A DNA stretch of 21,862 nt from a virus, in the IMG/VR virus record IMGVR_UViG_3300028800_000335, positions 1 through 21,862 of that record; one strand, written 5' to 3'. Under the pieces are notes generated by a model. That model was not told the DNA's origin, did no database searches, and saw nothing but the letters and a program-made list of their open reading frames with translations. Numbering within the stretch: position 1 is the first letter of the stretch; each line of letters begins with the position of its first letter. Shown piece by piece: positions 1-20,400 of this stretch. Made by a program: the position numbers and the translations under genes.

Positions 1-26
1 TCGTCGATCACTAACGGAGAAGAACC

Positions 27-476
27 ATGCAGATCATGATTACCAATGGCGGGCCGCATCCCGCCGACAAATGGGCCGAGGTGACGACCGAAGCCATCCT
101 CGACCTTATTCAGGTTGCCAGCGATTCCGACACGCCGGAAGCCGCTGCGGCGCGCAAGGCCAAGCGCGACCTGCGGCCGGTGCTGTTCGACATCCTCAAT
201 GACGCGCACGCCCTGGTGCAGGGCCATGAGCGCGGCGAACTGGCGTCCAAGGGACTTGCCCGCTGCAAGGCAAACCTTGCCGATGCCGACGCGGTGCATT
301 CGCCCGGAGTCATGAAGAAGATCAAGACGGCGCTGGCCGCCACGCCATTCAAGGATCACTTCGCCAAGCCGGAGGTGATCGCGGTGATCCGCACCATCGT
401 CGGCCAGCACATCGCCAACAACATGCACACCGAGCGGTGCTGGCACCAAGACCGCACCGCCAAAGCAGGAGCCTAA
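27..476 (+). CDS. Hypothetical phage protein, 149 aa
   Basis: I do not recognise this protein. It is soluble and mixed-charge, with no signal peptide or membrane segment, and looks largely alpha-helical (an AEVTTEAILDLIQ helix near residue 16 and Ala/Lys-rich helices later). The C-terminal tail holds several His residues and one Cys (HTERCWHQD). The start at ATG 27 is chosen for a good ribosome site (GGAGAAG, 16-22); a second in-frame ATG at 36 is less well placed. Bases 3-14 read as three codons plus TAA, probably the end of an upstream gene, so this is an internal operon member. It ends 3 bases before the next start, suggesting co-translation with the structural gene that follows. A virion or assembly role is inferred from position only. 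Confidence 0.8.
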   Translation: MQIMITNGGPHPADKWAEVTTEAILDLIQVASDSDTPEAAAARKAKRDLRPVLFDILNDAHALVQGHERGELASKGLARCKANLADADAVHSPGVMKKIKTALAATPFKDHFAKPEVIAVIRTIVGQHIANNMHTERCWHQDRTAKAGA

Positions 477-479
477 GCC

Positions 480-1139
480 ATGGCCGGTATCACCACCGCA
501 ATGTGTGACAGTTACAAGCGCGACCTGATGTCGGGCTTGCACTGTCACAATCAAAGCCGCACCCACACCGGCACCACCACCAACGGCGGCTTTCAAGTCA
601 CCGGCGTTTCGTCGCTGACGGGCCTTGCGGTCGGAGCCAAGCTGTCCGGCACCAATATTCCGGCGGGCGCGGTGATCGCCTCGATCGATTCGTCGAACTC
701 GTACACCATGTCGAAATCCGCGACCGGAGCAGGCACACCGACCATTACCAGCGTCGGCGACACCTTCATGATCGCGCTGTTCAAGGTCGGCGTGGCAGGA
801 ACCTATAGCCGCACCACCACGAACTATTCCGACATGACCGGCAATTCGGACGAGACCAGCGGCACCGGCTATACCGCAGGCGGTCAGGCGCTGACCAATG
901 TGGACCCATCGCTCGATACCGGCACCGCGATCACCGATTTCTCGCCGGACCCGACATGGACCTCGGCGTCGTTCTCGACCATCGGCTGCATGATCTACAA
1001 TGCCACCCGGCGCGGCCCGATCGTAAATCAGGCAACTTCGGTGCATGACTTCGCTGGCACGCAGACGGTTTCCTCCGGCACCTTCACCGCCGTGATGCCG
1101 GTTGCGGCGGCAGCTACCGCCATTCTGCGCATCGCCTGA
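480..1139 (+). CDS. Phage structural protein with inserted beta-rich module, 219 aa
   Basis: The framework (KRDLMSGLH at residues ~13-21, then DTFMIALF at ~94-101, then GTGYTAGGQAL at ~127-137) matches a small phage structural protein I know from many siphovirus and podovirus clusters; its exact role is not established. Between the LH and DTF strands sits an extra Gly/Thr/Ser-rich segment, residues ~32-93, with the pattern TGVSSLTGLAVGAKLSGTNI followed by PAG. This is a short beta unit common as a decoration in phage tail proteins. A related unit is found inside the collar protein at 8419-9804. The start ATG 480 has AGGAG about 10 bases upstream. The TGA overlaps the next ATG (TGATG), indicating translational coupling. 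Likely a virion surface or tail component; the specific role is uncertain. Confidence 0.85.
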   Translation: MAGITTAMCDSYKRDLMSGLHCHNQSRTHTGTTTNGGFQVTGVSSLTGLAVGAKLSGTNIPAGAVIASIDSSNSYTMSKSATGAGTPTITSVGDTFMIALFKVGVAGTYSRTTTNYSDMTGNSDETSGTGYTAGGQALTNVDPSLDTGTAITDFSPDPTWTSASFSTIGCMIYNATRRGPIVNQATSVHDFAGTQTVSSGTFTAVMPVAAAATAILRIA

Positions 1140-1792: not shown

Positions 1793-2212
1793 ATGGCCGT
1801 TGCAATCTCAAATCTGCGATATGCAGATGCCGGTAACACGACCATCGACATGGACGTATCAGGGTGGATCGATGGTGAAACGATCCCGTTTACTTATCAC
1901 CCTAATGACACTGAACCTTTGTCAGTCGCCGTAAGAGAATTGCTCGCGAACGCGAACTATACAATTTCTCCTTATAAATATGTCCCCGTTGTTTATGTTG
2001 TTTCTCCGATGCAGGCGCGGATCGCGCTATTGAATGCCGGGCTGCTCGACACAATTCAGTCAGCTATCGACGCCAAGGGTGGCGCGATCAAAATTAAGTG
2101 GGAATACGCCACTGAAATTCGCAGCGATGACGCTGATCTCATCGCAGTTGCGACGGATATTGGGATTGCCGATCAAATACCTGCGCTGTTTCAAGCCGCG
2201 AAGTCTATATAA
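1793..2212 (+). CDS. Small fibre-associated phage protein, 139 aa
   Basis: The C-terminal half (ARIALLNAGLLDTIQSAI at residues ~75-92, then IKWEYATEIRSDDADLIAVA) matches a short protein type often encoded directly after tail-fibre genes, where it may help fibre folding or attachment; that role is not proven. The N-terminal half (ISNLRYADAGNTTIDMDVSG) looks beta-rich. The start ATG 1793 directly follows the TAA of the fibre gene and has AAAGG about 9 bases upstream. GC content over 1561-1980, which spans the boundary with the fibre gene, is about 46% by hand count, against roughly 60-65% in most of the window. The two genes therefore look like one transferred cassette. No membrane segments are seen. 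Confidence 0.75.
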   Translation: MAVAISNLRYADAGNTTIDMDVSGWIDGETIPFTYHPNDTEPLSVAVRELLANANYTISPYKYVPVVYVVSPMQARIALLNAGLLDTIQSAIDAKGGAIKIKWEYATEIRSDDADLIAVATDIGIADQIPALFQAAKSI

Positions 2213-2222
2213 GGCATAAGTC

Positions 2223-3245
2223 ATGGCGATCGGCACGCAGGCGATTGGCGTCCTTGCGATCACGCAGCTTGCCAATGTTGGCGGATCGCAGAACGGCCAA
2301 GGCTCCCTTGTTGGCGTTTCGGCCACCGGCGGCGCGGGATCGTTCGTCAAGACGATCGACAAGATTATTCCCGGCGTATCGGCGCAGGGCTTTGCCGGAG
2401 CATTCACGCCAAGCGTGGCGATTCTTGTTATCGGAGCGGGTGCCACCGGACAGGCTGGATCGCCTGCGGATTCCGGGGCGCAGGGGCTGGTCGGCGTTTC
2501 GGCAACCGGCCTGTCGGGCCAGTTCATCCCGGCTGTCTCCGTCACCGTTCCGGGTGTCGGCGGCATCAGCGGCATCGGCTCTTTCATCGGAAGCGGGGCC
2601 AAGGGCATCACCGGCGTATCGGCACAAGGGTTTGCCGGTGGCGTGCTGCCACACGTCTACGCCTTCATCGATGGCGTTGGTGGCGCGGGCGAGGCTGGAT
2701 CGCCATTCAATTCGCAGACCAGCGCCATCCCCGGCGTCGGCGCGACAGGATTTGCAGGCGTTTTCACCCCATGGGTGCAAGCGCAATTCCATGGCGTGCA
2801 GGCAGTCGGTTATGCCGGTGAATTCATCGGCAACCCCGGCGGCAATTTCGAGGGTGTCGAGGGCCACGGTTACGCGGGCATCATCACCGTCACGATCTCC
2901 GGCGGCGGCACGTCCTCGGCAGCCACCGGCGACGGCGACAAGCCGCGCCGCCGTGATCCGCGCTACAAGCCGGGCTTCGAGCGCATCAAGAAGGTTCCGG
3001 AGCGCAAGGTTGTCATCAAAGACACCAAGCTCATTCCGCCGGATGATTTCGCCAATGCGCCACTGGTGCCGCGCGATCCGGTGGAGCCGCCGGAATTCGT
3101 CAGCGATGACGAAGGCTACCTCGACCTGCAAGGCCGCATCTTCGATGCGCAGGACATGACCGACATCGATCGGTTGTTGGCCGAACACGATCTGGACGAG
3201 CAGGATTTGGGCGATGTCCTCGACATCCTCGCTCTGATGGACTGA
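2223..3245 (+). CDS. Glycine-rich 20-residue-repeat virion protein, 340 aa
   Basis: Residues 31-220 are ten consecutive 20-residue units, each opening with a GVxAxGxAGx motif (GVSATGGAGS, GVSAQGFAGA, GVGATGFAGV, GVQAVGYAGE and so on), with no insertions or deletions. A degenerate eleventh unit precedes them near residue 9. Similar GVsAtG-type repeats are known in phage fibre and appendage proteins, where they are expected to stack into an elongated beta structure. From about residue 225 the protein changes character: a basic Arg/Lys stretch (KPRRRDPRYKPGFERIKK), then an acidic helical tail (MTDIDRLLAEHDLDEQDL) that could mediate attachment or assembly. A fibre, spike or decoration role is inferred. 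The start follows the previous gene by 10 bases with a modest AAGG site. Confidence 0.8.
   Translation: MAIGTQAIGVLAITQLANVGGSQNGQGSLVGVSATGGAGSFVKTIDKIIPGVSAQGFAGAFTPSVAILVIGAGATGQAGSPADSGAQGLVGVSATGLSGQFIPAVSVTVPGVGGISGIGSFIGSGAKGITGVSAQGFAGGVLPHVYAFIDGVGGAGEAGSPFNSQTSAIPGVGATGFAGVFTPWVQAQFHGVQAVGYAGEFIGNPGGNFEGVEGHGYAGIITVTISGGGTSSAATGDGDKPRRRDPRYKPGFERIKKVPERKVVIKDTKLIPPDDFANAPLVPRDPVEPPEFVSDDEGYLDLQGRIFDAQDMTDIDRLLAEHDLDEQDLGDVLDILALMD
2313..2882 (+). repeat. Ten-copy, 60-bp-period coding repeat
   Basis: This segment encodes the ten 20-residue units of the glycine-rich protein. The period is exactly 60 bp throughout. Units alternate between two types: those with a Pro two residues after the motif's aromatic residue (FTP, FIP, VLP, FTP at residues 61, 101, 141, 181) and those without. 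This gives a 120-bp double period. A 240-bp higher period is also visible: GGCTGGATCGCC occurs at 2453 and again at 2693. DNA identity between units is low overall, so the array is old. Confidence 0.85.
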
Positions 3246-3258
3246 CACACAAGGATTC

Positions 3259-3648
3259 ATGGGCATGGACGGCGGAATCGAGCATATCGCTCGGGCGCAC
3301 ACGGTTGCGCTCGGCATGGACGTAGAACTGCAACTCGACAGGTCAGCGCAGCGCGGCTTTCAGCCGGTGCTGGTGATGCTGCGCGATGCGCGCGAGCGCG
3401 CGGTGGCCGCGATGACGCAACTGGTGATCTGCGATCCAACGGATTCGCTGTCGATCCGCAGGTTGCAGATGGAGATCGCGGTATTCGACGACATGGTGAA
3501 TTCTTGCCGGGCCATCGTGGCGCGCGGGCGCGAGGTCGAACGCATCGTGTCGGAAGAAGAACGAGCCGAGATCAACGATCTCATCATGAACAATCCGCAA
3601 TGGGCAACCGCCGAAATTTCCGGCGCAACAGGAGTAAACGACCGATGA
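3259..3648 (+). CDS. Small helical phage protein before the scaffold gene, 129 aa
   Basis: This is a short, mostly alpha-helical protein (RSAQRGFQPVLVMLRDARERA at residues ~28-48; SIRRLQMEIAVFDDMV at ~64-79; SEEERAEINDLIMNN near 97-111). No named family is recognised. ATG 3259 is preferred because AAGGA lies 5 bases upstream; ATG 3265 is an in-frame alternative. The ATGA overlap with the next gene (3645-3648) implies coupling to the scaffold-like gene, so a role in head assembly or the portal/connector region is plausible. That is inference from position. There is no signal peptide or membrane segment. Confidence 0.8.
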   Translation: MGMDGGIEHIARAHTVALGMDVELQLDRSAQRGFQPVLVMLRDARERAVAAMTQLVICDPTDSLSIRRLQMEIAVFDDMVNSCRAIVARGREVERIVSEEERAEINDLIMNNPQWATAEISGATGVNDR

Positions 3649-4883
3649 CCAAGATGACGGAGAAAGAGATTGCCGAGGCCAATGAGCAGCGGCAGGTTCA
3701 TGACGAAAACGCCGCAGCCCGCGATGGCGTCGAGGATAGCGCCGAGAACGATCTCGCGCCGCGCGGCGATCAGGAGCCGCCGTCTCCAGGCGAGGACGGC
3801 CTTGAGCGCCGCGAAACCATCCGCATGTCGCCGGGCGATGCTGCCCGCGCCGAAATGGCGAAGAAATTCCGCCGCGCGGATTCGGTGCCGTTCAATGGCA
3901 ATCCGAACGACCCGGAAATGCTGTACGGCGATGTCGCCCGCGAGACGCTGGTGCCGGAGGATAACGAGCCGGAGAATATCAGCGGCGAGGACCGCGAGCC
4001 TGCACCGCAGGCCCAGCAGCCGCCGCAGAAGCGCAAGATCAAGGTGCGCGGTCAGGAAATCGAACTGACCGACGATGAAATTCTTGAACGTGCCGCCAAG
4101 GTCACGGCGGCCGACAGCTATCTCGAAGAAGCCCGCGAGCTTCTGCGCGATGCGAAAACCATTAAGGCCGAGCGTGCTGGCCGGGATCGTCAACACCCCG
4201 ACGAGCAATCAAGCACGCAAGACGACGAGCAGGAACTCGAACCGCCGCAGGATCAACGCCGCCCTGTTGATACTAAGAGCGTGGTCGAGAAAATCCAGTT
4301 CGGCGACCCCGAAGAAGCCGCCCAAGACCTCGATGAACTGATCGAGCGAAAGGCCGGTGAACGGGCCGACAATGCGCAACTGAAACGGGTCATGGATAAT
4401 GATCTGGCGAAGTCGCAGAAGGCTCTGAAAGACTTCGTGGCCGCGAATCCCGAGTTGGACGCCGATCGACTGTCGGCGACCGCGATTGAGAACATCCTCT
4501 ACGACATCTATCGTGAGGAAATTCTATCGCTCGGGCAGGTGGACGCCGACAAAATCCCGAAAAACCCGCAGGAGCTTGCCTATTGGCACCGCTTCTACCG
4601 GGTCAACGGGCATCAGGTTTCCGATTTCGCCAAGGCCATCAATACGGCCAAAGAGCGTTTCGAGGCTTGGCGCGGCAAACCCGCCACTCCACAGCAACCC
4701 CGCAAGGCACCGACAGGTCGCGTTGAGGTCAACGTCGATCGGTCCCAGCGCCGTGCGGCTATCCCAAATCAACCCGAGCGCGCCGTCGCCCCTCGTCCCG
4801 CAGCCACCCAGCAGCAGACTCCCAAGTCCCGCTCTGACGTGATTGCGCAGATGAAGAAGGCACGCGGTCAGATCACCGCTTAA
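3645..4883 (+). CDS. Probable capsid scaffolding protein, 412 aa
   Basis: It is a highly charged, Glu/Gln/Asp-rich, low-complexity protein with predicted coiled helices, placed immediately upstream of the major capsid gene. That is the usual place and composition of a phage scaffolding protein, which directs procapsid assembly and is then lost. A short folded segment lies around KRKIKVRGQEIELTDDEIL (residues ~128-146), a pattern common in scaffold-like proteins before N4-gp56-type capsids. A helical region containing YWHRFYRVNG (near 310) follows, and the C-terminal tail is basic and Gln/Pro-rich, ending in SRSDVIAQMKKARGQITA, a likely capsid-binding tail. ATG 3645 overlaps the previous stop and has CAGGAG upstream; an upstream in-frame extension to 3504 is shadow sequence of the preceding gene. 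The call rests on context and composition. Confidence 0.75.
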   Translation: MTKMTEKEIAEANEQRQVHDENAAARDGVEDSAENDLAPRGDQEPPSPGEDGLERRETIRMSPGDAARAEMAKKFRRADSVPFNGNPNDPEMLYGDVARETLVPEDNEPENISGEDREPAPQAQQPPQKRKIKVRGQEIELTDDEILERAAKVTAADSYLEEARELLRDAKTIKAERAGRDRQHPDEQSSTQDDEQELEPPQDQRRPVDTKSVVEKIQFGDPEEAAQDLDELIERKAGERADNAQLKRVMDNDLAKSQKALKDFVAANPELDADRLSATAIENILYDIYREEILSLGQVDADKIPKNPQELAYWHRFYRVNGHQVSDFAKAINTAKERFEAWRGKPATPQQPRKAPTGRVEVNVDRSQRRAAIPNQPERAVAPRPAATQQQTPKSRSDVIAQMKKARGQITA

Positions 4884-4915: not shown

Positions 4916-5908
4916 ATGACTGGTCAAGTTTGGGCCGTTGCAGCCGAAGGTGGCTACATGTATTCGGACGAATTGTCCGACATCATGCGCCAGCAGGTGC
5001 AGCCGCTCACCAAGTTCCGGCAGCTTTGCGATGCGCAGGACGGCTCCCAGAAGGGCCTGAATCGCGGCGACAAGTTCAACTGGAACGTCTACTCCAATGT
5101 CGGCTCGCAGGGCCGCCGCCTGTCGGAAAATCAGGTCATGCCTGAAACCGGCTTCACCATCGTTCAGCACCAGTTGATGGTCACGGAGGCTGGCAACAGC
5201 GTCCCGTACACCGGCAAGCTGACCGATCTCGCCAAGCAGGATGTCATCAGCATCATCGACAAGACGTTGAAGGATGACGCCCGCAAGTATTTCGACATCG
5301 AGGCGTTCCTCCAGTTCAACCGCACGCCGTTGCGTGCGGCCCCGACCGGCGGCAACTCCACCACGTCGATCACGCTGGACACCAACGGCACCGCGTCGGT
5401 GACGAACAATCTGGCGCTCAACACCGGCCATGTGAAGGCCATGGGTGACACGATGAAGGAACGGAACATTCCGCCCTACATCGTGGATGACTATATCTCG
5501 GTCAGCCACCCCTCGACCTTCCGCGCGCTCAAGAACTCGTTGGAGGCGATCCACCAGTACACCGAGACTGGTCTGGCTCACATCTTCAACGGCGAGATCG
5601 GGCGCTATGAATCGTTCCGCTTCATCGAGCAGAACTTCATCCCGAAGGGCGGCGCTGCGGATTCGACCACGTTCGATCCGTGGAGCCAGACGGCCGATGC
5701 CTGGAACAACGGCCTGTCCTCGTGGGCGTTCTTCATGGGCGGCGACACCGTGACGGAAGCGGTGTGCATCCCCGAGGAAATCCGGGCCAAGCTGCCGGGC
5801 GATTACGGTCGTTCGCGCGGCATCGCGTGGTACTACCTCGGCGGCTTCGGCCTCGTCCATGATGATGCGCTCAACGCGCGCGTCATCAAGTGGGACTCGG
5901 CGGCGTAA
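4916..5908 (+). CDS. Major capsid protein, N4-gp56 family
   Basis: At 330 residues the length fits the N4-gp56 capsid family (HK97 fold). Recognisable family features are the N-terminal YSDELSDIMRQQVQPLTKFR (residues 15-34), the charged GLNRGDKFNWN segment (~47-57), the AGNSVPYTGKLTDLAKQDV region (~92-110), and the signature HPSTFRALKNSLEAI (198-212) followed by NGEIGRYESFRFIEQ (225-239). It would form the icosahedral shell after scaffold-directed assembly. Codon use is strongly biased to G/C-ending codons, as expected of the most highly made virion protein. The start ATG 4916 has GAAAGGAA about 8 bases upstream. A shorter loop (GGNSTTSITLDTNGTASVT, ~145-163) looks like a surface-exposed insertion. 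Confidence 0.92.
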   Translation: MTGQVWAVAAEGGYMYSDELSDIMRQQVQPLTKFRQLCDAQDGSQKGLNRGDKFNWNVYSNVGSQGRRLSENQVMPETGFTIVQHQLMVTEAGNSVPYTGKLTDLAKQDVISIIDKTLKDDARKYFDIEAFLQFNRTPLRAAPTGGNSTTSITLDTNGTASVTNNLALNTGHVKAMGDTMKERNIPPYIVDDYISVSHPSTFRALKNSLEAIHQYTETGLAHIFNGEIGRYESFRFIEQNFIPKGGAADSTTFDPWSQTADAWNNGLSSWAFFMGGDTVTEAVCIPEEIRAKLPGDYGRSRGIAWYYLGGFGLVHDDALNARVIKWDSAA

Positions 5909-5936
5909 CCGGCACAGCCAGAAAGGAAACACGCAA

Positions 5937-6398
5937 ATGTCCTACGATACCCCCCAGCGTGAGGAATACTTCCTCCCGTCATCTGCCTTTGGTGCCACCA
6001 CCGAAACGCAGACGCTCATCGGGCCTCCGGGCAAGAAGGGCCTTGTGCGCGACATCATCACCGACCTGTCGGCTGATGCTGTCGGCACCACCACCGTGCC
6101 GGAAATCAATGTCGGCAACGCTTCCGGTGACTATTCCTACGCGCGTCACCGTCTCGGCACGTCCGCGACGGCTGGCAACACGGCTGCTGGCACGCCCTAC
6201 CGGGCGCGTCAGTTGACGCAGAACGCGCAGGGCCGCACCGGCGGCACGCCGCCGGTGCTGAGTGATTTCGCGGGCCACGTCGCCCTCGAAACCGCTTACA
6301 TTCCGGCCGACACCGCGTTCGTCGTCACCCGCAAGGCTGGCGTCGGCGGCACCCCGGCAGGCACCGGCCGCACCATCGTTATCGTCGATTGGTTCTAA
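5937..6398 (+). CDS. Small capsid-associated (possible decoration) protein, 153 aa
   Basis: It lies 28 bases after the capsid gene and starts at ATG 5937 with AGAAAGGAAA upstream, the same ribosome site style as the capsid gene. The protein is beta-rich, Thr/Gly/Ala-rich and lacks Cys (SADAVGTTTVPEINVGNA near 50-68; a C-terminal GTGRTIVIVDWF strand). A compact beta protein in this position is often a head-stabilising or decoration protein, but I see no diagnostic motif. The 5859 in-frame upstream ATG would add an Arg/Ser-rich shadow of the capsid reading frame and is rejected. An intrinsic terminator follows 28 bases after the stop, so this is the last gene of the head block. Confidence 0.8.
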   Translation: MSYDTPQREEYFLPSSAFGATTETQTLIGPPGKKGLVRDIITDLSADAVGTTTVPEINVGNASGDYSYARHRLGTSATAGNTAAGTPYRARQLTQNAQGRTGGTPPVLSDFAGHVALETAYIPADTAFVVTRKAGVGGTPAGTGRTIVIVDWF

Positions 6399-6426
6399 GC
6401 CTTTCGACCTGACGCCCACCACCACC

Positions 6427-7528: not shown

Positions 7529-8419
7529 ATGGTCATGAATTACACGAGCCTGCTGGCCGACAAGGGCCAGCCGGGATCGATCGCGACGTGGGTGGGCTAT
7601 AAAAAGCTCGATCTGCCGACCATTCTCGATGAAGCGCAGTCGCTGCTCTATTCGATGTTGCGCGTGCGGCAGATGCGCACCGAATGGACGTTCGGCATGA
7701 GCGCCGGGCAAAGCGAGATCGCCCTGCCTGACCGTTTCCTTGATCCGATGGGGCCGATTCTCGCCATTGGCCTCAACCAAAAGATCGTTCACCGGCCGCA
7801 GAACGAGATCGAGCGCCACCGGATGTATGACAACACCCTGTCCGGCGCACTCGATGATGATCCGATCACCACCACGGCGAATTCCTCGCTGGCAACCGTC
7901 AGGATCACCGCACACGGACTGACGCAAGGATCGAGCATCACCATCGACGGGCTTGCCGCAGTCGGCGGCCTGACCCTCAATGGCACCTATCCGGTGGCGT
8001 CGATTACCAATTCCAACACGCTTGTGATCGATGCGGGGACGCCCGCCACATCGGCGGCGAGCGGTGGCGGCGATGATGCTACCTACACCGCGAATCTTTT
8101 GATCGCATCCATCCCGCAACTGTTCTCGGTCTGGGATGAGGCGATCAAGTTCGATTATGCTTTCGAGACCGCGCAGACGTGCAAGCTGCTGTATTACCGC
8201 TCCCCGGCGCTGCTTTCATCCTCCAATCAGACGAATTGGTTGACCGCGCGTTATCCGCGCCTGCTGCGCACCGCATGTCAGGCTGCGGCGGCAGATTTCA
8301 TGAAAGACACCGAGGAATACACCAAGGCAGTCGGTGCTCTGCAAAGCCTCATTCAATCCACCGCCGCAGAAGATGATCTGATGTATCGCGGCAGCGACAT
8401 CATGACGGAGACGCCCTAA
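7529..8419 (+). CDS. Head-tail adaptor-like protein (SU10 type) with inserted beta domain, 296 aa
   Basis: The N-terminal ~100 residues have the layout of phage adaptor/connector proteins found between portal and tail: an early helix (DLPTILDEAQSLLYSMLRVR, ~28-47), then GQSEIALPDRFLDPMGPI (60-77). The C-terminal helices (YPRLLRTACQAAAADFM near 244-260) fit the same family. Residues ~112-190 are an insertion resembling the small FCCH-type beta domain: ITAHGLTQGSSITIDGL, then GGLTLNGTYPV, ending in a GGGDDATY turn. A relative of this domain occurs in the nozzle-like protein at 9905-11692. The start is ATG 7529; ATG 7535 is possible, as both have only a weak CGGGG site, perhaps because of the upstream hairpin. 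The stop overlaps the next ATG (TAATG). Family is assigned from pattern memory. Confidence 0.72.
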   Translation: MVMNYTSLLADKGQPGSIATWVGYKKLDLPTILDEAQSLLYSMLRVRQMRTEWTFGMSAGQSEIALPDRFLDPMGPILAIGLNQKIVHRPQNEIERHRMYDNTLSGALDDDPITTTANSSLATVRITAHGLTQGSSITIDGLAAVGGLTLNGTYPVASITNSNTLVIDAGTPATSAASGGGDDATYTANLLIASIPQLFSVWDEAIKFDYAFETAQTCKLLYYRSPALLSSSNQTNWLTARYPRLLRTACQAAAADFMKDTEEYTKAVGALQSLIQSTAAEDDLMYRGSDIMTETP

Positions 8420-9804
8420 TGGCCCTCGATATCTATTCCTCCATCCTCGGCTTGTTGTTGCAGGCCACCGGCAACAACAACAATTCGTGGGGCGATAACG
8501 CCAACAATTCGGTGTTCAAGGTGCTGGAGCGCGCGGTTGCCGGTGTCGCCACCCGCACCGTCACCGGCGGCACGCTCGATTTGTCAGCGTCCGCCCCGCC
8601 ATCCGCTATGACGCAGGCGATCGATGCCATTCAGCTATTCGGCGGCACGCTCACTTCCGATCAAACCGTGGAGGTGCCGAACCTGTCGAAGGTCTGGCTG
8701 GTCGGCAATGCCACCTCCGGGGCGTTCGATCTGGCGTTCAAGACGCCAAGCGGCACGATTTCGGAAGCGATTCCGCAGGGCGGTTGGGCTTTCGTCTATT
8801 GCGATGGCGACAACAACATCAATGTCGGACTGTCCACGGCGCTGCGTGATGTGCAATGGCTGGGTGCCGATGGCACGATCTCGGCTCCCGGCCTGTCGTT
8901 CGCCGCCGAGCCGACAGTCGGCTTTCGCCGGGTCGATACCGGAAAGGTCGCATTGACCATCGGCGGCGTCGATATCGCGACGTTCTCGGCAACTGGCGTT
9001 GATGTCGGAACGGGTCTCGTTCTTTCCGTGGGCGGCGCGGCCGTTGTGCCGCCTGGAACGGAAGTCGATACAGCCTCCATTCGCGCGCCGACCGGATGGT
9101 ACATGGAGTATGGTCAGGCCGTATCGCGGTCGGGCGACCTTCCGCTGATGAACGCCATCACCGAGGCATTCACCGCCAACACCAACGGCACCACCACACT
9201 CTCGAATGTCTCAAGCGATTTGCGGAATCTTGGTCTTGAAGGCTCTATTCTGGAGGGTGTCGGTATTCAAACCGGCACAACCATCGTATCCGTCGATTCC
9301 GCTTCGCAAATCACCATGTCGCTGGCGGCCACCAATACGGCAACCGGCGGCGCTGTTCGCGCGTTCCCGTTCGGAAATGGCGATGGTTCGACCACCTTCA
9401 ACGTGCCGGATGGGCGCGGTGTCGCCTATGCGGGGCGCGATAATATGGGCGGCACCGCCGCTGGTCGCATCACCTCGGCCGGGTCCGGCGTCGATGGATT
9501 GCGGCTCAAGACCATTGGTGGCACGCAGAACATCACCCTCTCAGTAAACAATCTGCCGCCATATACTCCGCAGATTTCAGTTGCATCTGCCTATGAAGGC
9601 CAGTTGACCATCACTGGCGCACCAAGTTCGTTTGCTACCGGGTCCGGTGACGCCGCTCATCCTGCGATGGTGTCTAACGGGACTTCGACCTACTCGCTCC
9701 CCGCCATCACAAATACGGTGACGGCTACTGCGCAGGGAGGCACATCAGCACCATTCTCCAGCGTGCAGCCGACCGCTATCCGCAACAAGATCATCAAACG
9801 CTGA
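8419..9804 (+). CDS. Tail collar/tip protein with interrupted collar domain, 461 aa
   Basis: The C-terminal half holds a phage tail-collar domain: GWYMEYGQAVSRSGDLPLMN (residues 226-245), then FGNGDGSTTFNVPDGRGVAY (318-337) and DNMGGTAAGRI. In ordinary collar domains these two parts are nearly adjacent. Here a beta unit (~251-315, including GSILEGVGIQTGTTIVSVDS) is inserted between them. The N-terminal part (1-150: NNNNSWGDNANNSVFKVLER) resembles proteins that line up along fibre or base structures, with a beta-rich middle (ADGTISAPGLSFAAE). The protein would be exposed on the virion and involved in host binding. The start overlaps the adaptor gene stop. A 100-base gap with two hairpins follows, suggesting transcription ends or is reduced here. 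Confidence 0.82.
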   Translation: MALDIYSSILGLLLQATGNNNNSWGDNANNSVFKVLERAVAGVATRTVTGGTLDLSASAPPSAMTQAIDAIQLFGGTLTSDQTVEVPNLSKVWLVGNATSGAFDLAFKTPSGTISEAIPQGGWAFVYCDGDNNINVGLSTALRDVQWLGADGTISAPGLSFAAEPTVGFRRVDTGKVALTIGGVDIATFSATGVDVGTGLVLSVGGAAVVPPGTEVDTASIRAPTGWYMEYGQAVSRSGDLPLMNAITEAFTANTNGTTTLSNVSSDLRNLGLEGSILEGVGIQTGTTIVSVDSASQITMSLAATNTATGGAVRAFPFGNGDGSTTFNVPDGRGVAYAGRDNMGGTAAGRITSAGSGVDGLRLKTIGGTQNITLSVNNLPPYTPQISVASAYEGQLTITGAPSSFATGSGDAAHPAMVSNGTSTYSLPAITNTVTATAQGGTSAPFSSVQPTAIRNKIIKR

Positions 9805-9904: not shown

Positions 9905-11692
9905 ATGGCAAAACTGACACCTCTTGCGATCACCCCGTTGCCCGGCGTAGTCCTGACGGAATCTGGACGGATCGCCGAAGGGCGCTGGATCGCATCGAGC
10001 AACATCCGCTTTGTGCAGAAACGCCCGCAAAAGATCGGCGGCTGGGAGCAGGCATATGACGATCCGACCGATGGCGTGCCGCGCGCGATGCACGCTTGGC
10101 GCGACAATCAGACCAATCCCTACAATGCCGCTGGCACCTACAAGAAGCTCTATGTCTACGACCGCGACCTTGAGCGCAACGACATCACGCCGTTTCGCGA
10201 CACCGGCACGCTCGGCAATGATCCCTTCACGGTAACGAACGGCTCAAATATCGTCACGGTCGAAGATGTCGGCCACAACCTCAACGCTGGCGATACAGTC
10301 TATTTTTCAGGCGCAACCGAGGTTGGCGGCATCACGCCGAACGGAACATTTGTCGTCGCCACCAGCATCGACGCGGATCACTACACGTTCCTGTTCAGCG
10401 CAAATGCAACATCGGACGCCACTGGCGGCGGCAACGCCGTGGCGTATCAGTATGAAATTCCAATCGGTGTCGAGCTTGGCGCTTTCGGTTATGGCTGGGG
10501 CATTGGCGGCTGGGGCCTCGGTACATGGGGCGCCGCGCGATCGACTTCGACAGTGGCGATCGAGCCTCGCATCTGGTCGCTCGATCATTTCGGCCAGTTA
10601 CTGATCGCGGCCTATAATGGCGGCAGCGTCTATCAGTTCGATCCGTCCGTGGCGAAGCCATGGGGCCGCGCAACGCGCGTGGATGCCAGCGCGCCGGATA
10701 ATGTCCGCGCGGTGTTTGTGACCCCGGAACGCTTCATCATGGCGCTACTGGATGGAATGCAAGTCGCATGGCCGAGCCAGGGCACCATCAATGACTGGAC
10801 GCCATCGCTGACCAACACCGCGAACGTCCGCACCTTGACGGAAGGCACAAAGCTGGTGGCCGGTCGCGTGCTGGCTGACTTTGTGTCGCTGATCTGGACC
10901 GATGCGGCGCTGTATCGCTTTCAGTACACCGGATCGACCTATGTTTATAACTCGTCGATGGTGGCAAAGGATTGCGGCCTGATCGCACCTGGCGCGACCG
11001 TCACCGCAGGCGGTGTCGCCTTCTGGATGGGGCAGGATAATTTCTGGATGTATGACGGCACCGTGCACCCGATCCCGAATGTCGAGGACATCCGCAAGGC
11101 GGTGTTCGACGAACTGAGCGTCAATAACGGCTATCAATGCACGGCGGTCTATAATCCGCAGCATAATGAGGTGTGGTTCTTCTACACCATCAACGGCGAG
11201 ACCTCGCCAACCAAGGGCGTGATCTATTCGATCGACAACCAATGCTGGTCGCCATTGCCGTTTGGGCGCGTGTCCGGCACGCATTTCACCCAAGGCGACA
11301 CCCGGCCCTATATGGGCCTCGACACCGGATACATCGTGCAGCATGAGATCGGCAACGATGCTGATGGCGATCCGCTGCCATACTCGCTGACGCTGGCACC
11401 TTATGCGATGAGCGAAGGCTTGGTGCATATGGATGTCGAGTACCTGATCCCTGATTTCAAGGACCAGATCGGCAACATCGAGATCACGGTCGATACTTGG
11501 AATGTTCTCAACGATTCGGCCAAAGAGGATTCCGAAACGGAAAGCATCGCGCCGGTGGATTCCGGCAACATCGATTTCCGCGTGTCTGGCCGCTATCTCG
11601 GGATGACGCTCTCGTGTGACGAACCCGGCTGTTATTTCCGCTTCGGAAAACCAGCCGCCTTCATCAAGCCGAGCGGCCAGCGTTCACCATAA
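9905..11692 (+). CDS. P22 gp10/nozzle-like tail protein, 595 aa
   Basis: The N-terminus (GRIAEGRWIASSNIRFVQKR near residues 21-40, PQKIGGWEQ) and the many regularly spaced aromatic strands (FGQLLIAAYNGGSVYQFD ~239-256; VAFWMGQDNFWMYDGTVHPI ~370-389; NEVWFFYTINGE; NQCWSPLPFGR) match the beta-propeller tail hub or nozzle proteins of podoviruses, such as P22 gp10 and relatives, which close the tail channel and hold packaged DNA. Residues ~104-182 are a small FCCH-like beta domain (GNDPFTVTNGSN, GHNLNAGDTVYFSG, ending TGGGNAVAYQY). A Gly/Trp-rich loop (YGWGIGGWGLGTWG) follows. ATG 9905 has only a weak TTGAGCAAG site. Assignment is from layout memory; the identity of the exact hub component is uncertain. 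Confidence 0.75.
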   Translation: MAKLTPLAITPLPGVVLTESGRIAEGRWIASSNIRFVQKRPQKIGGWEQAYDDPTDGVPRAMHAWRDNQTNPYNAAGTYKKLYVYDRDLERNDITPFRDTGTLGNDPFTVTNGSNIVTVEDVGHNLNAGDTVYFSGATEVGGITPNGTFVVATSIDADHYTFLFSANATSDATGGGNAVAYQYEIPIGVELGAFGYGWGIGGWGLGTWGAARSTSTVAIEPRIWSLDHFGQLLIAAYNGGSVYQFDPSVAKPWGRATRVDASAPDNVRAVFVTPERFIMALLDGMQVAWPSQGTINDWTPSLTNTANVRTLTEGTKLVAGRVLADFVSLIWTDAALYRFQYTGSTYVYNSSMVAKDCGLIAPGATVTAGGVAFWMGQDNFWMYDGTVHPIPNVEDIRKAVFDELSVNNGYQCTAVYNPQHNEVWFFYTINGETSPTKGVIYSIDNQCWSPLPFGRVSGTHFTQGDTRPYMGLDTGYIVQHEIGNDADGDPLPYSLTLAPYAMSEGLVHMDVEYLIPDFKDQIGNIEITVDTWNVLNDSAKEDSETESIAPVDSGNIDFRVSGRYLGMTLSCDEPGCYFRFGKPAAFIKPSGQRSP

Positions 11693-14458: not shown

Positions 14459-17400
14459 ATGCCGTTCGACGAGTCAATCCTGGGCGGCTCGGTGCCGTTC
14501 GACCCCAACGAGGCGGTCCAGAACGCGATCAATGAACTGTCCGATCAGCCGCGCGGCACCTCGGTGGACCCGAACATCGCGGTCGATCGCGCGGCGCGCA
14601 AGCTGCTGCAACCGCGCGCGCCGGATGTTGTTGCGCCGGAATCGAAGTATTCCCGCGCCGCCCGGCCGGACCTGTCGTCGCTTGGCGAGCCGGTCGATGT
14701 GGCTGCGCCGGAGGCTGCCGACACCGGCAGCAAGGCAACCAAGCCGGACCTGTCGTCATTGGGCGAGCCGGTCGAGCCGCCAAGCATGGGCGTTGGCGGT
14801 CATGCGGCGGCGTTCGGCAAGGGCATCGTGCAGGGCGCGATCGGGGGCACCGGCGACATCGTGAAGGGCGCGGCGGTTGCTGGCAACGCGCTCAATCCCG
14901 ATCCGTCGCTCGAAGAAGTCTATGCCGCCTCCGGCATTGACCCGCGCACCATCGCCGACAGCCGGGAAGCGTTGGAAGCCCGTCAAGGGCCTACCCCGGT
15001 ATCGCAAAACCCGCTCTACAAGGCGGGTGAAGCCACCCGGAAATTCGGCGAACGGCTCGCGCCGATGTCGCCCGCCGAGAAGGATTCGATTGCAGGCAGG
15101 GTCGGTCAGGGTCTCGGCACCGTTGCACCATATTTGGTCGGCGGTGCCGCGCTCGGCCCCGAAGGAGCGATTCTCGCGGCTACCTTTGGTGGCGCTGCGC
15201 AATCCGCCGGTGCGACCTACGCCGACGCCATCAGCAAGGGAGCCAGCGAAGATGATGCGATGAAAGCCGCCGGGCTGTCGTCGCTGGTCGGTGCTGCTGG
15301 CAACGCAATCCCCATGGGCGCGATCTTCCAACCGATCGAGAAGATCGCGGGCGTGGCGATCAAGTCGCGCGCGGTCAACATCATGGCGGAAGCCGCCAAA
15401 TCCGGCATCGTGTTCGGTTCGATCGGCGAGGCACAGGAATATCTGGGCCAGCAGATCGCCAAGCAGTTCTACGATCCGAAGGCGGGATATGATCTCGACA
15501 CCAAGCGCGTCATCGCCTCGCTGATTACCGGCGGCATTCTCGGCGGCTCGCACGCCGCGTTCGGCCGAGGAGAGCCGGAGAAGGCCCCTGACAATGCGCT
15601 GCCGCCACCGGACAATGCGGGCATGTCCGGCCAAGGTCCGAATCCGTCCGGTCCCGACACCGGGCCGCGCTCCGATCAGTCCGGCGTAGGCTCCCGCAAG
15701 CTCGCCGACATCCTGCGGCACTATGGCTATTCTGATGCCGACATTGCCGGGATGAGCCACGCGCAGATGCGCGACACCGTGATGGCGGAAATGCGCGGCG
15801 AGTCCCGCGCCAAGCCGTCCGGCGATCAAGAAAACCCCACCGAACAACCGACTGCAAAGACTGCCGAAAAGAAGCCCGCATCAAATGACGATCAGGAATA
15901 TTCGATCCTGCGTCAGGGCGGCTATTCCGACGAGAATATCCGCGACATGTCGGCATCGCAGCGCAAGAGCGAGGCCGATTATTACCGCAACGATCTCGGC
16001 ATTGATGTTGCCGAGGCGGTGAAGCGTTATCCGCGCCCGGCCGAGCAATCGCAGCCATCCGCCACGGAGACAACCACCACAGAGACGTTGAAGCGGCGCG
16101 GCTATACCGATGACGATCTCGCCGGAATGTCGGCCGACGATCAGCGCAAGGCGATGATCGACAATGTGCAGCCGCAGGGCGATCTGTACGAGCGCGCCAA
16201 GAAAATCGTGGTCGGCGACAACAACGGATCAACCAGCTATTTGCAGCGCAAGCTCGGGCTTGGATACAAGCAGGCCGCCGATCTGATGACGCGCATGGAG
16301 CGCGAGGGCATCGTCAGCGCGCCGGATCAGAAGGGTGGCCGCGCCATCGTCCAGGCGACCGGCGATCGCGCCGCGCCGATCAAGGCCGCGACCGCTGACG
16401 ATGTGATCCGTGCCAGCGAGCAGGTCGCCGAGCCGACCACGGCGCAGGCTGAGGCCGAAAACTACAAGCACGGCCACCTCGACATCGAACCGCTTGGCCT
16501 GACGGGAAAGAACAATATCTCGATCGAGACTGGCGTGGGCCAGACCCGCAAGGGTGTGGATGCGGATGGCAAGGAATGGTCTGTGCAGATGCCGGTCGCC
16601 TATGGCCGCATCAAGGGCACCAAGGGTGCGGACGGCGAACCGCTCGACATCTTCATCGGCCCCAATCCGACCTCGAACCATGTGTTCATGGTCGATCAGC
16701 ATCATCCCGGCGGCGGCGGTTTCGACGAACACAAGATTCTCGCAGGTTTCGTCAATCCGCGCGCGGCGCTGAAAGCCTACAAGGATTCTTACACGGACGG
16801 CGCTGGCGACCGCATCGGCGGCGTCACCGCGATCACCGCCGACGAATTCAAAACCTGGCTGAAATCCGGCGACCACACCGCGCCTTACGCGAAAAAAGAG
16901 CCGGTTTCCTCGACCCATGGCGAGGAAACCGGCTCCAACACGCCCTTTACTGAGGCAGACGCCGCAACGTCTGTCCCGAAGGAAGCCACGCAGGAGGGGG
17001 CAACTCCATCGACGGCTTCCAAGACCCAAACGCCGGTCAACGAAACCAGTTCCGGCATCGAAGGCGAAATTATATCGCCTGCAAGGGTCTACGCAGAGCC
17101 TGCGGAAGAACACCACCAGCAGATCGAGGCGGTGCTGGGGCAGGATTATGACCGTGTGCTGCCCGCCGATACTGCGCGCGCGGCCGAAATCCTCGCCGAC
17201 AACCCCGATATGCCGCCCGCGATCGCTTTCCAGCACGCGGTGATCGAGAACGCCGTCGTAGGCGGCTATCTGACCGAACAGGAGGCGAAAGACGCCTATG
17301 GCCCCGAAGTCCAAGAGATACTGGAACCCGTCAGCGAAGGGACACCTCGCAGCGGCGGCGACCTTGAACAAGAACGCGCCGAATCTGCACAAGAGCGCGC

Positions 17401-20400
17401 CGGTGATGCAGAAGAAGCTGGCGTCGTTTCGCGCGGCGGCGAAACTGGCGAAGGCACCGAAGGTCCATCAACCAAGCCCGGTCAAGGCGCAGTCGATCAC
17501 CAGTCCGACACCGGACGCGGCACCGCCGACAAATCCGACACCGGCGGTGAAACCAAACCCGGCCCCGTCAAATCTGAAACTAAAACCGCCGCCGAAGCTA
17601 TAGGGGCTGAAAATGCTCGACATCGCTTTGCCGTCTTGCGCGCCACCAACGAACGCTGGCGCGAGCTTGTCGATACAACGATTGACCAGACGCATCCCGG
17701 CGACATCTTCACGGCTGTTCGTCTCAACCTGACAAACGGGTCTCTCTCGCTCAAAGAAGCGCGCAATCTGCTGCAAGCGATCGAAGAAGAAGAAATCCCG
17801 AAGGAAGAATCCATCGACATTCTGGCCCGCAGCAAGATCGAGAAGCTGCAAGGTGGCTATACGGTGGCATTCCCCCACAAGGATGAACACCAAGAAGGTC
17901 GGATGTGGGCTACGATTGTCGGCATCGAGGACGGTTATCTGCGCAAAAACGGCGACCCTACGCCGAAGCTGCGCAAGCTGATTGAAAATCCTCCTGCGCC
18001 ATTGCCGGAGCCGAGCCGCATCGAGGACGCTGGCGAGAAGATCGGCGGCGCGCGCAAGGATCAGTGGGCCGGTCGCGGCCTGACCATGGACGATCTCGAC
18101 GGCATGACGGGTGCCGAGATCGACAAGCATGTGACCAAGCACAATGTCTGGCAGAAGCCGGACTATGTGCAGGCGGTCGCTGAGGGCGTCGATCCGGGGG
18201 CCGCTGCGCTCATCAAGCGGATGTATGACGGCATCGCGGTCAAGCCGACGCCGGACAAGTATGGCCGGGTCGATCATTCCGAACTGCGCAAGCGATATAT
18301 CGCGGCTCTCAATGCGGTGCGCGAGGTGGCCGCCGAGGTCAAGACCGTGCGCGACGTGCGCGATCTCGACGATCGTGTCACCGCCAAGCTGTCCCGCGAG
18401 GGCATCGTCGATGCCTGGGATGCGATCAATTCGATCAAAAAGGCAGGAGCGCGGACCTCGCCGCTCTATGTCTCCGGCCGCGACATCCGCGCCGCCGAGC
18501 GCATGGTGGCGGAAGGCTTCCCGCAGGCCGAGCCGTGGACGCGGCTGTTTCAGGTGGGAGAGATTTTCGACAAGGACAATCCGTTCGGTGTTCGCCGCAA
18601 GAACGGCGGCCTTATCAGCCGTCACAAAACGCGCGAAGAAGCCGAAGCCGCTGCGAAGGCCGCCTACGAGGCGATGCCGGATGAACGCAAGAAGGGCGGC
18701 GAAGAACCGAAGCGCCCGCACCTCGATAGCGTCGAGCGATCCGGCCCCGACTATCGCAAGGGCAAGGATGTCGGCTCCGAGGACTTCATCAAGGATTTCG
18801 GCTTTCGGGGCGTCGAGTTCGGAAATTGGGTCGCTGGCGACGAGCGGCAGAAGGTGGTCAACCTCGCCTATGATGCGCTGCATGATTTGGCGCGGGCGCT
18901 GAATCTGCCTGCCAAGGCGATGTCGCTGGATGGCACCTTGGCGGTGGCGTTCGGCGCGCGCGGCAAGGGTGGCCGGGCAGCGGCGCATTATGAACCAGAC
19001 CGCACCGTCATCAACATGACCAAGCTGTCCGGCGCAGGATCGCTGGCGCATGAATGGGCGCACGCGCTTGACCATTATCTCGGCGAGACGCACAGCCAGA
19101 ATCCGTACAAGGGCAGCGTGCAGTCGCTGACCGGCTGGCGCGATACGCCCGCCAATCCGCAGACGCATTATCGGTTCGGCAAGTTCGAGAGCGCCAACAA
19201 GGCGCTCCCGCTCAAACTGCGCGTGGCCGCCAACCGGCTGATGGACACCCTGTTCGGCGTCGAGGAAGCCGATCATGCTGCCGAGGATCGCATCCGCAAG
19301 CAGATCGAGGCAAAAAAATCCGGCATTAAGAGTTGGGCCGATCAGGTCAACCGCATCAAGGAGCGGATGAAAACCGGCGGCTCGCGTCAGGGCTTGAAGC
19401 AGGCCGAGGATCAGGTCGAAATTTGGGGGCGCAATCTCAAGGCGCTGGAACGCCAGCTTGAGGAAGGCATCGTCAAGAAAACGGTGGCATCGAATTTCGT
19501 CAAGGAAGCCACCAAGCTCTCCGGTACCACCGGCGACTATTGGCGGCGTCCGAACGAACTGTTCGCACGCTCCTTTGAAGCCTATGTGTTCGACAAGATC
19601 GCCGCCGAAGGCTTTGCCTCGCAATATCTCGTCCAGGGCGTCGAACAGGATCGCTATGGCGCGGGCTTCAAGGGCAATCCCTATCCGGTCGGCTCCGAGC
19701 GCGAGGCGATCAATGCCGCCTATGACCGGCTGTTTCGCGCGCTGGCGACCGCCGAAGGCAAACACGGCCAGGGCACCCGCATTCAGGGCGCGGAAGGCGA
19801 GCCGGAGCCGGTCGAGACCGTCACCAAGGTTGTGCGCCCGCAGGCGCAGCCAAGTCCGCGCGAGGAACAGAAAGCCGTTGAGACTGCCGGTCTGCGGGCT
19901 GGCGGCCTTGGCGGGGTGTTTCAGGCCCGCCTCGAACAGGGTGGCGATTTCCCGAACATTCTGGCCGCCCGCAAGATGGCGAAAGAGGCCGGGTTCACCG
20001 AGGACGCCAAAGAGGTCGAGGAATGGATGGAGGCCGCCGTGGTGCGCACCGCACGCGGCGACATCGCCACCTCGCGCACGCCGCAGACCGCCTACAAGGC
20101 GCTGGTCAACCTCTACAGCCGTCAGCCGAAACTCGGCACCCGCACCTCAACCAGCGTTCGGGATCAGGCGTATTCCACGCCGGTGCCGCTGGCCTATCTG
20201 GCCTCGAAACTGGCCGGGATTACTGAAAACACCAGCGTGTTTGAGCCGACCGCTGGCAACGGCGCGCTGTTGATCGATGCCAACCCGCAGCGCACGCTCG
20301 CCAATGAAATGAATGATGCCCGCGCTGCGCAACTGCGCGATCAGGGCTTCCCGACGACGATCAAGGATGCGTCGGAAAAGGGCGCGTTCTCCAAGATTCC

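Follow-up and report, generated by a model that had tools for sequence, protein, structure and literature searches.

The window analysed here, a record of 21,862 bases from a virus infecting soil bacteria, carries upstream of its capsid gene an open frame in which a unit of 20 residues is repeated ten times, and this raises the question what kind of phage protein is built in this way and how it varies between relatives. A literature search, with bioRxiv text outside its scope, found no description of a 20-residue repeat of this kind.

A 20-residue repeat in strict register

The gene and its parts are as follows.

2223..3245, plus strand: repeat gene of 340 amino acids, an open frame of which related contigs have homologues at the same slot
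2223..2312, plus strand: N-terminal 30 residues with a diverged GFDALGRLALGQ-type motif, the window copy being a loose match read by eye
2313..2912, plus strand: ten units of 20 residues (residues 31-230), with family consensus GVAGTGVAGSLTPSVSAGLT
2371-2383 and 2611-2623, plus strand: exact match of 13 bases at the start of units 2 and 6
2452-2464 and 2692-2704, plus strand: exact match of 13 bases in units 3 and 7, likewise 240 bases apart
2898..3242, plus strand: conserved C-terminal tail with SGGG, a basic stretch, GxExIKK, a Pro-rich linker and a C-terminal helix, recognised by matches of its own profile

The 20-residue repeat in the window protein is genuine. Units start at residues 31, 51 and so on to 211, all nine spacings are exactly 20, and a unit-finding profile, itself trained on the window units, placed ten out of ten in this protein. 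Residue identity at lags of 20, 40, 60, 80 and 100 was 0.276, 0.337, 0.271, 0.327 and 0.269 (z 7.7, 10.4, 6.9, 8.6 and 6.0), with an autocorrelation peak at every multiple of 20, and in 2000 shuffles the best identity at any lag from 1 to 100 was 0.225, so that none reached the values observed at lags 20-100. The first-pass annotation of this DNA, which described ten units without indel from residue 31 onward, is thus borne out on this point; the end that it gave at residue 220 leaves only nine and a half units, since the tenth (211-230) runs into the terminal SGGG. A long frame on the opposite strand (2205-3317, minus strand) overlies the gene and was taken to be a by-product of GC-rich codons.

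At the DNA level the repeat copies are old. Identity between units averages 42-47% in the window, Tandem Repeats Finder found no array in the repeat stretch, and the longest inexact DNA match of all, 42 nt at 74%, lies between stretches spaced 180 bases, not 240 bases, apart. Features common to units 80 residues apart had been described earlier, and these are real (QAGSP and EAGSP at residues 77-81 and 157-161, and the DNA identity at 2453 and 2693), but a separate 80-residue period finds no support when the order of the window units is permuted (period four, p 0.13 for protein and 0.13 for DNA).

An alternation of P-containing and P-free units, with a 40-residue period, had also been proposed. 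In the window, P occurs at unit position 13 in units 2, 4, 6 and 8 only, and unit-order permutation gives p 0.032-0.033 for period two over the whole unit and 0.016 for positions 10-20; the alternation is weak, however, and P is also present at positions 11, 15 or 20 in units 1, 3, 4, 7 and 9. As a rule for the family, strict two-unit alternation was rejected after tests on nine proteins and a test without the conserved C-terminal units, and a two-faced arrangement throughout the family does not hold either: p was 0.038 in L012, 0.058 in L007 and 0.21-0.80 in six others, that is, non-significant in six of the nine. A preference for V or I at position 15, found post hoc among six features tried, follows parity counted from the C-terminus (30 of 43 odd units, 11 of 46 even ones); it falls to p 0.085 when the last four units are left out, and so mainly reflects the conserved C-terminal units.

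Unit numbers and interchangeable modules

Relatives were gathered through the neighbouring capsid protein (40 loci) and a capsid alignment (the best 80 of 266), and homologues of the repeat gene were located in the same place of those loci by tblastn and a profile of the C-terminal tail. This profile gave 18 matches among 2506 distinct frames from 122 loci (the window included in both), one of which, in L084, looks spurious. In 12 proteins of related phages that carry the repeat type of the window (type A), 104 units were placed, with 6-17 recognised units per protein: ten in the window, nine in one protein, seven in five, six in three, and 15 and 17 in the others; L070, added later, has eight. 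The highest-scoring relative, L012, is the one with nine. Type-A unit counts thus differ by single units, and the idea that the array grew by four units at a time is unsupported by these counts (6, 7, 8, 9, 10, 15 and 17) and by the permutation test. By eye, one can make out a degenerate seventh unit, with SGGGG at its end, in L018 and in the second of the two L019 copies; L019 has two type-A genes, at 1491-2906 and 5615-6421, with 15 and 6-7 units and unlike C-terminal ends.

Irregular unit lengths among relatives would speak against a regular unit, and here the outcome was mixed but mostly in favour of regularity: of 92 type-A spacings, 70 are 20 residues and 13 are 21, while the nine others comprise four of 22 and one each of 17, 18, 23, 24 and 52. 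Unit positions 4, 6 and 8 are nearly invariant G, G and A (0.90, 0.98 and 0.92 of 98 units) and positions 11, 15 and 19 are mostly hydrophobic, a pattern that packed strands would be expected to show. In each of the nine proteins compared, the last unit passes into SGGG; this unit is strongly conserved in place, with 12.3 of 20 residues identical between proteins as against 6.7 with other units; the four units next to it are conserved in place only slightly.

The position of the gene can be followed beyond the type-A proteins with the help of the next gene downstream.

3259..3648, plus strand: 129-aa gene directly downstream of the slot, which serves as its marker and has no significant PHROG or Pfam family

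Frames similar to this marker numbered 73 in 93 distinct loci, and just upstream of 68 of them lies a frame of at least 100 aa. These slot frames were chosen mechanically, as the longest frame of at least 100 aa ending near the marker, and the 68 include wrong ones (L052, probably L022) as well as 16 of at least 680 aa, several of which are portal genes with no slot gene between. The GFDALGRLALGQ-type N-terminal motif is present in its strict form in 11 of the 68 and in a looser form in 2 more.

The slot is a variable position ahead of the putative scaffold and capsid genes, with similar ends and a middle that is interchangeable and variable in length. In L016/L017, L049 and L055 the same N-terminal motif and C-terminal tail enclose other middle sequences. 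The unexpected part is this modularity, with several sequence types that have the same 20-residue period: besides type A, repeats of unlike sequence have their best lag at 20 in L023, L078, L097, L098 and L111 (z 8.8-14.8). Other periods occur in L028 (23), in L074, L077, L079, L083 and L084 (33-34), in L101 (37) and in L043 (40). The lag measure gave no significant period for L006 and L016, yet L006 has five units at a spacing of 20-21. A profile comparison of type A with the repeat type of L097/L098, the one pair of types compared, found no similarity and gives no support to homology of these two, which may still share a distant ancestor.

Whole modules have been replaced between closely related contigs. 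From the boundary of repeat and tail, within the slot gene, L097 and L098 are 98.9% identical over 7,527 bases; before this boundary they have little in common, apart from a match of 130 bases (68%) in the repeats. For L096 the shared stretch begins 92 bases later; this contig is 99.7% identical to L097 over 6,445 bases and has a third, different repeat type of about 23 residues by eye. These three are metagenome contigs with a low-complexity charged coil as shared tail, so that the trio could contain a misassembly; as they stand, near-identical downstream DNA is joined to three different modules of N-terminus plus repeat. L018 and L019, metagenome contigs to which the same caveat applies, have 90.7% identity that sets in at about residue 115 of the slot gene, inside the repeat array, and upstream of the gene they have no DNA match. 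Beside the slot gene of L098 lies a 282-aa frame (1-849, minus strand) that is glycosyltransferase-like by eye only.

Neighbouring genes, phage type and probable host

The other genes that bear on the setting of the slot are given below.

27..476, plus strand: 149-aa gene travelling with the cassette; a homologue with 31% identity lies next to the repeat gene in prophage L126
480..1139, plus strand: 219-aa gene travelling with the cassette (phrog_644, 7e-05), 58% identical over 126 aa in L126
1139..1792, plus strand: 217-aa fibre-type protein; annotated tail fibre proteins of HMO-2011 and HTVC309P match its residues 116-147 at about 74-78% identity
1793..2212, plus strand: 139-aa gene (phrog_6034); in L097 a similar gene separates the slot gene from a glycine-rich fibre gene
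3648..4883, plus strand (exact start uncertain; the open-frame list gives 3504-4883): putative scaffold gene, so named from its position alone, with identities of about 42-51% across the 11 loci compared
4916..5908, plus strand: major capsid protein (Pfam Phage_capsid_3, 2e-05; phrog_1357, 2e-14)
7529..8419, plus strand: SU10-type adaptor protein, which marks the phage type (Pfam SU10_adaptor, 1.4e-12)
8419-9804: collar-domain protein
9905..11692, plus strand: virion structural protein, nozzle-like by position (phrog_3287, 2e-47)

By its adaptor the window phage is SU10-like, a phage of the short-tailed kind. In SU10, trimeric fibres sit on adaptor and nozzle, the long fibres docking on the adaptor, and the fibre genes gp12, gp13 and gp16 are numbered after the capsid gene gp9 (PMC9509320). 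The window phage resembles it in having an adaptor of this type and differs in that its repeat gene precedes the capsid gene; since the collar-domain protein (8419-9804) occupies a position like that of the SU10 fibre genes, the repeat gene is additional to the SU10-like set.

The slot is linked to genes of fibre type on its upstream side. The 217-aa neighbour has the similarity to tail fibre proteins listed above and no Pfam match, and in L097 a Gly_rich_2 protein (3.1e-10, with tail-fibre PHROG matches) is encoded two genes upstream of the slot gene. In one case there is a fusion: in L126, a prophage of the genus Bradyrhizobium, a frame of 623 residues contains Gly_rich_2, a domain type typical of tail fibres, at 119-360 (2.1e-14), followed by eleven type-A repeats (ten by pattern, with one spacing of 40 read as two). 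The frame opens inside the preceding gene, so that the start of the L126 gene is uncertain. It is preceded by homologues of two window genes (27..476 and 480..1139), in a phage of which the capsid family differs from that of the window.

Bradyrhizobium or a near relative is a likely host of the window phage. A search for the repeat in 265 Bradyrhizobium genomes gave two matches, L124/L126 and L125, the latter of which did not look like a repeat protein, and relatives of the capsid gene were found in two Bradyrhizobium records (L046 and L047), the same 2 of the 265 genomes of the genus. The host is no better than likely because the slot of these two capsid-bearing records contains short frames without significant repeats.

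A probable fibre shaft and its alternatives

Structure prediction was done with AlphaFold on single chains, for the whole protein with 10 sequences and for a 7-unit stretch with a 12-row in-register alignment. Confidence was low (mean pLDDT 39.5 and 41.7), and since both models are poor they show no fold. Strands recur in both every 20 residues, at about unit positions 19-7 and 11-15, and the only helix in the whole-protein model, at 299-339, is its best-predicted part. The earlier proposal that strict register means one regular turn per unit agrees with these strands, but at such pLDDT values they do not discriminate between a solenoid and a multi-chain fibre.

We consider it probable, at roughly 0.6, that the window protein forms an oligomeric shaft of beta repeats in a fibre of the adsorption apparatus. 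The repeat itself, the variation in unit number, the shared ends, the replacement of modules, and the linkage and single fusion to fibre-type genes are shown here; that the protein belongs to the virion, is oligomeric and acts as a shaft in host adsorption is what we infer. Each unit of 20 residues would form two beta-strands (at about positions 19-7 and 11-15) with turns at the conserved glycines between them, and many units in series would give a shaft that is thin and stiff. The conserved ends of the protein, its C-terminal tail and short N-terminal motif, would fit it to the particle or to the assembly process, the length of the shaft would depend on the number of repeats, which would change as units are gained or lost within the array, and the N-terminal half with the whole repeat module would be swapped between phages by recombination at or near the boundary of repeat and tail. 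A fibre is supported by where the slot lies, with fibre-type genes on one side and the putative scaffold and capsid genes on the other, and by the fusion of the type-A repeat behind Gly_rich_2 in L126, as well as by the exact register, the recurrence of the unit in related proteins, the 20-residue period of the sequence-unlike repeats and the three modules of L096-L098. Against it count the slot proteins of L029, L095 and L110, which have no clear repeats and no significant period, and the fact that the window protein has no database match to a known fibre family. Searches of Pfam, PHROG and NCBIfam gave no family match, and those of annotated phage records no direct relative at E 1e-5; at E 10 there were two weak matches, L002 and L003, which by eye have a GVSATG-type core and a similar N-terminus in common.

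A protein of the head side, the C-terminal helix of which binds portal, scaffold or capsid while the repeat module serves as head decoration or head fibre, is possible but rather improbable; it overlaps with the fibre shaft and differs from it solely in location. In its favour, the 129-aa, putative scaffold and capsid genes follow directly after the repeat gene, the contigs L096-L098, which share those genes and differ upstream, have almost the same C-terminal tail, and capsid fibres are described for an Agrobacterium phage (PMC12796354). However, the location of a gene is not enough to assign its product to the head, and in L126 the repeats come after a domain of adhesin type, in a phage whose head is different.

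The strict-register repeat could also be a monomeric beta-solenoid with one coil per unit, a short rod that acts as adhesin or spacer; at 4.8 A per coil, ten units would give a rod of about 5 nm. Perfect register, a regular strand pattern per unit and easy gain or loss of single units would all suit such a fold. Monomeric solenoids are often predicted better than was the case here, where two AlphaFold runs, one of them with the 12-row in-register alignment, gave no confident model, whereas obligate oligomers folded as one chain are not; the fibre shaft is favoured, and the solenoid is unlikely. Least credible is Gly/Ala-rich low-complexity filler that lacks a defined fold and owes its register to nothing but recent duplication. 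Such filler would match the composition and the low predicted confidence throughout the repeats but not the diverged DNA copies, the register that never slipped in the window or the same 20-residue spacing in sequence-unlike modules.

The shaft of the adenovirus fibre is a trimeric triple beta-spiral. With the 17 residues per 15 A of this geometry (PMC7565637), a beta-spiral of ten units would be about 18 nm long. The proposed shaft would resemble such structures in having short two-strand repeats, of which the number sets the fibre length, and differs in an unlike sequence, a 20-residue unit and a trimer state that is only supposed. The strands every 20 residues, seen in a model of no more than pLDDT 42, and the near-invariant glycines would be compatible with a two-strand unit that has a conserved turn residue. 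A search of the PDB revealed no sequence relation to solved triple beta-spiral members (no match below E 0.09 by sequence or E 4.3 by profile, both best matches being enzymes). The delta fibre of Orsay virus (beta-bracelet) is likewise a viral fibre shaft built of repeats; it is carried on the capsid and is a pentamer with an N-terminal coiled coil and eight residues per repeat, a five-residue strand and a three-residue loop (PMC7565637). For repeats that are unrelated and phage-specific there is a precedent in the tail fibres of pelagiphages, which have a constant N-terminal domain of T7 type and a variable C-terminus, whereas in the slot proteins the C-terminal tail is the more constant part (PMC3909814). 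No Pfam family for a T7-type N-terminal attachment domain was found in the window protein, and none above the cut-off in nine slot relatives.

The end that varies in well-known fibres is the C-terminal tip. The conserved C-terminal end of the slot proteins means that, if they are fibres, polarity or tip is not of the textbook kind. It is conceivable, and in our opinion doubtful, that the slot is a diversity hot spot for shafts rather than tips, with a constant C-terminal docking tail, a swapped outward N-terminus and shaft, reversed polarity, and a shared constraint that is geometric rather than due to recent descent; since repeats of unlike sequence share exactly 20 residues, the constraint would lie in one repeat height and a common oligomeric fold or dock. 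This would amount to a shaft-exchanging fibre system of reversed polarity. If the fibre shaft is right, the slot proteins would make up a phage fibre family that has no name as yet, with chain ends, repeat type and repeat number each varying on their own. Fibre length could then be studied apart from specificity, and the occurrence at a single gene position of several 20-residue beta repeats of unlike sequence would provide a natural test of the extent to which geometry, as against sequence, determines the length of a repeat.

Two observations concern large proteins elsewhere in these phages. A third of the window record is taken up by a single frame of 2437 aa (14459-21772). It encodes a polyvalent phage protein of large size in which domains of inorganic pyrophosphatase, FtsK gamma, LPD1 and, weakly, N6-methylase were recognised, and in L018 (12596-14515) a long Gly-Pro run (GPGPGP...) lies within a large phage protein.
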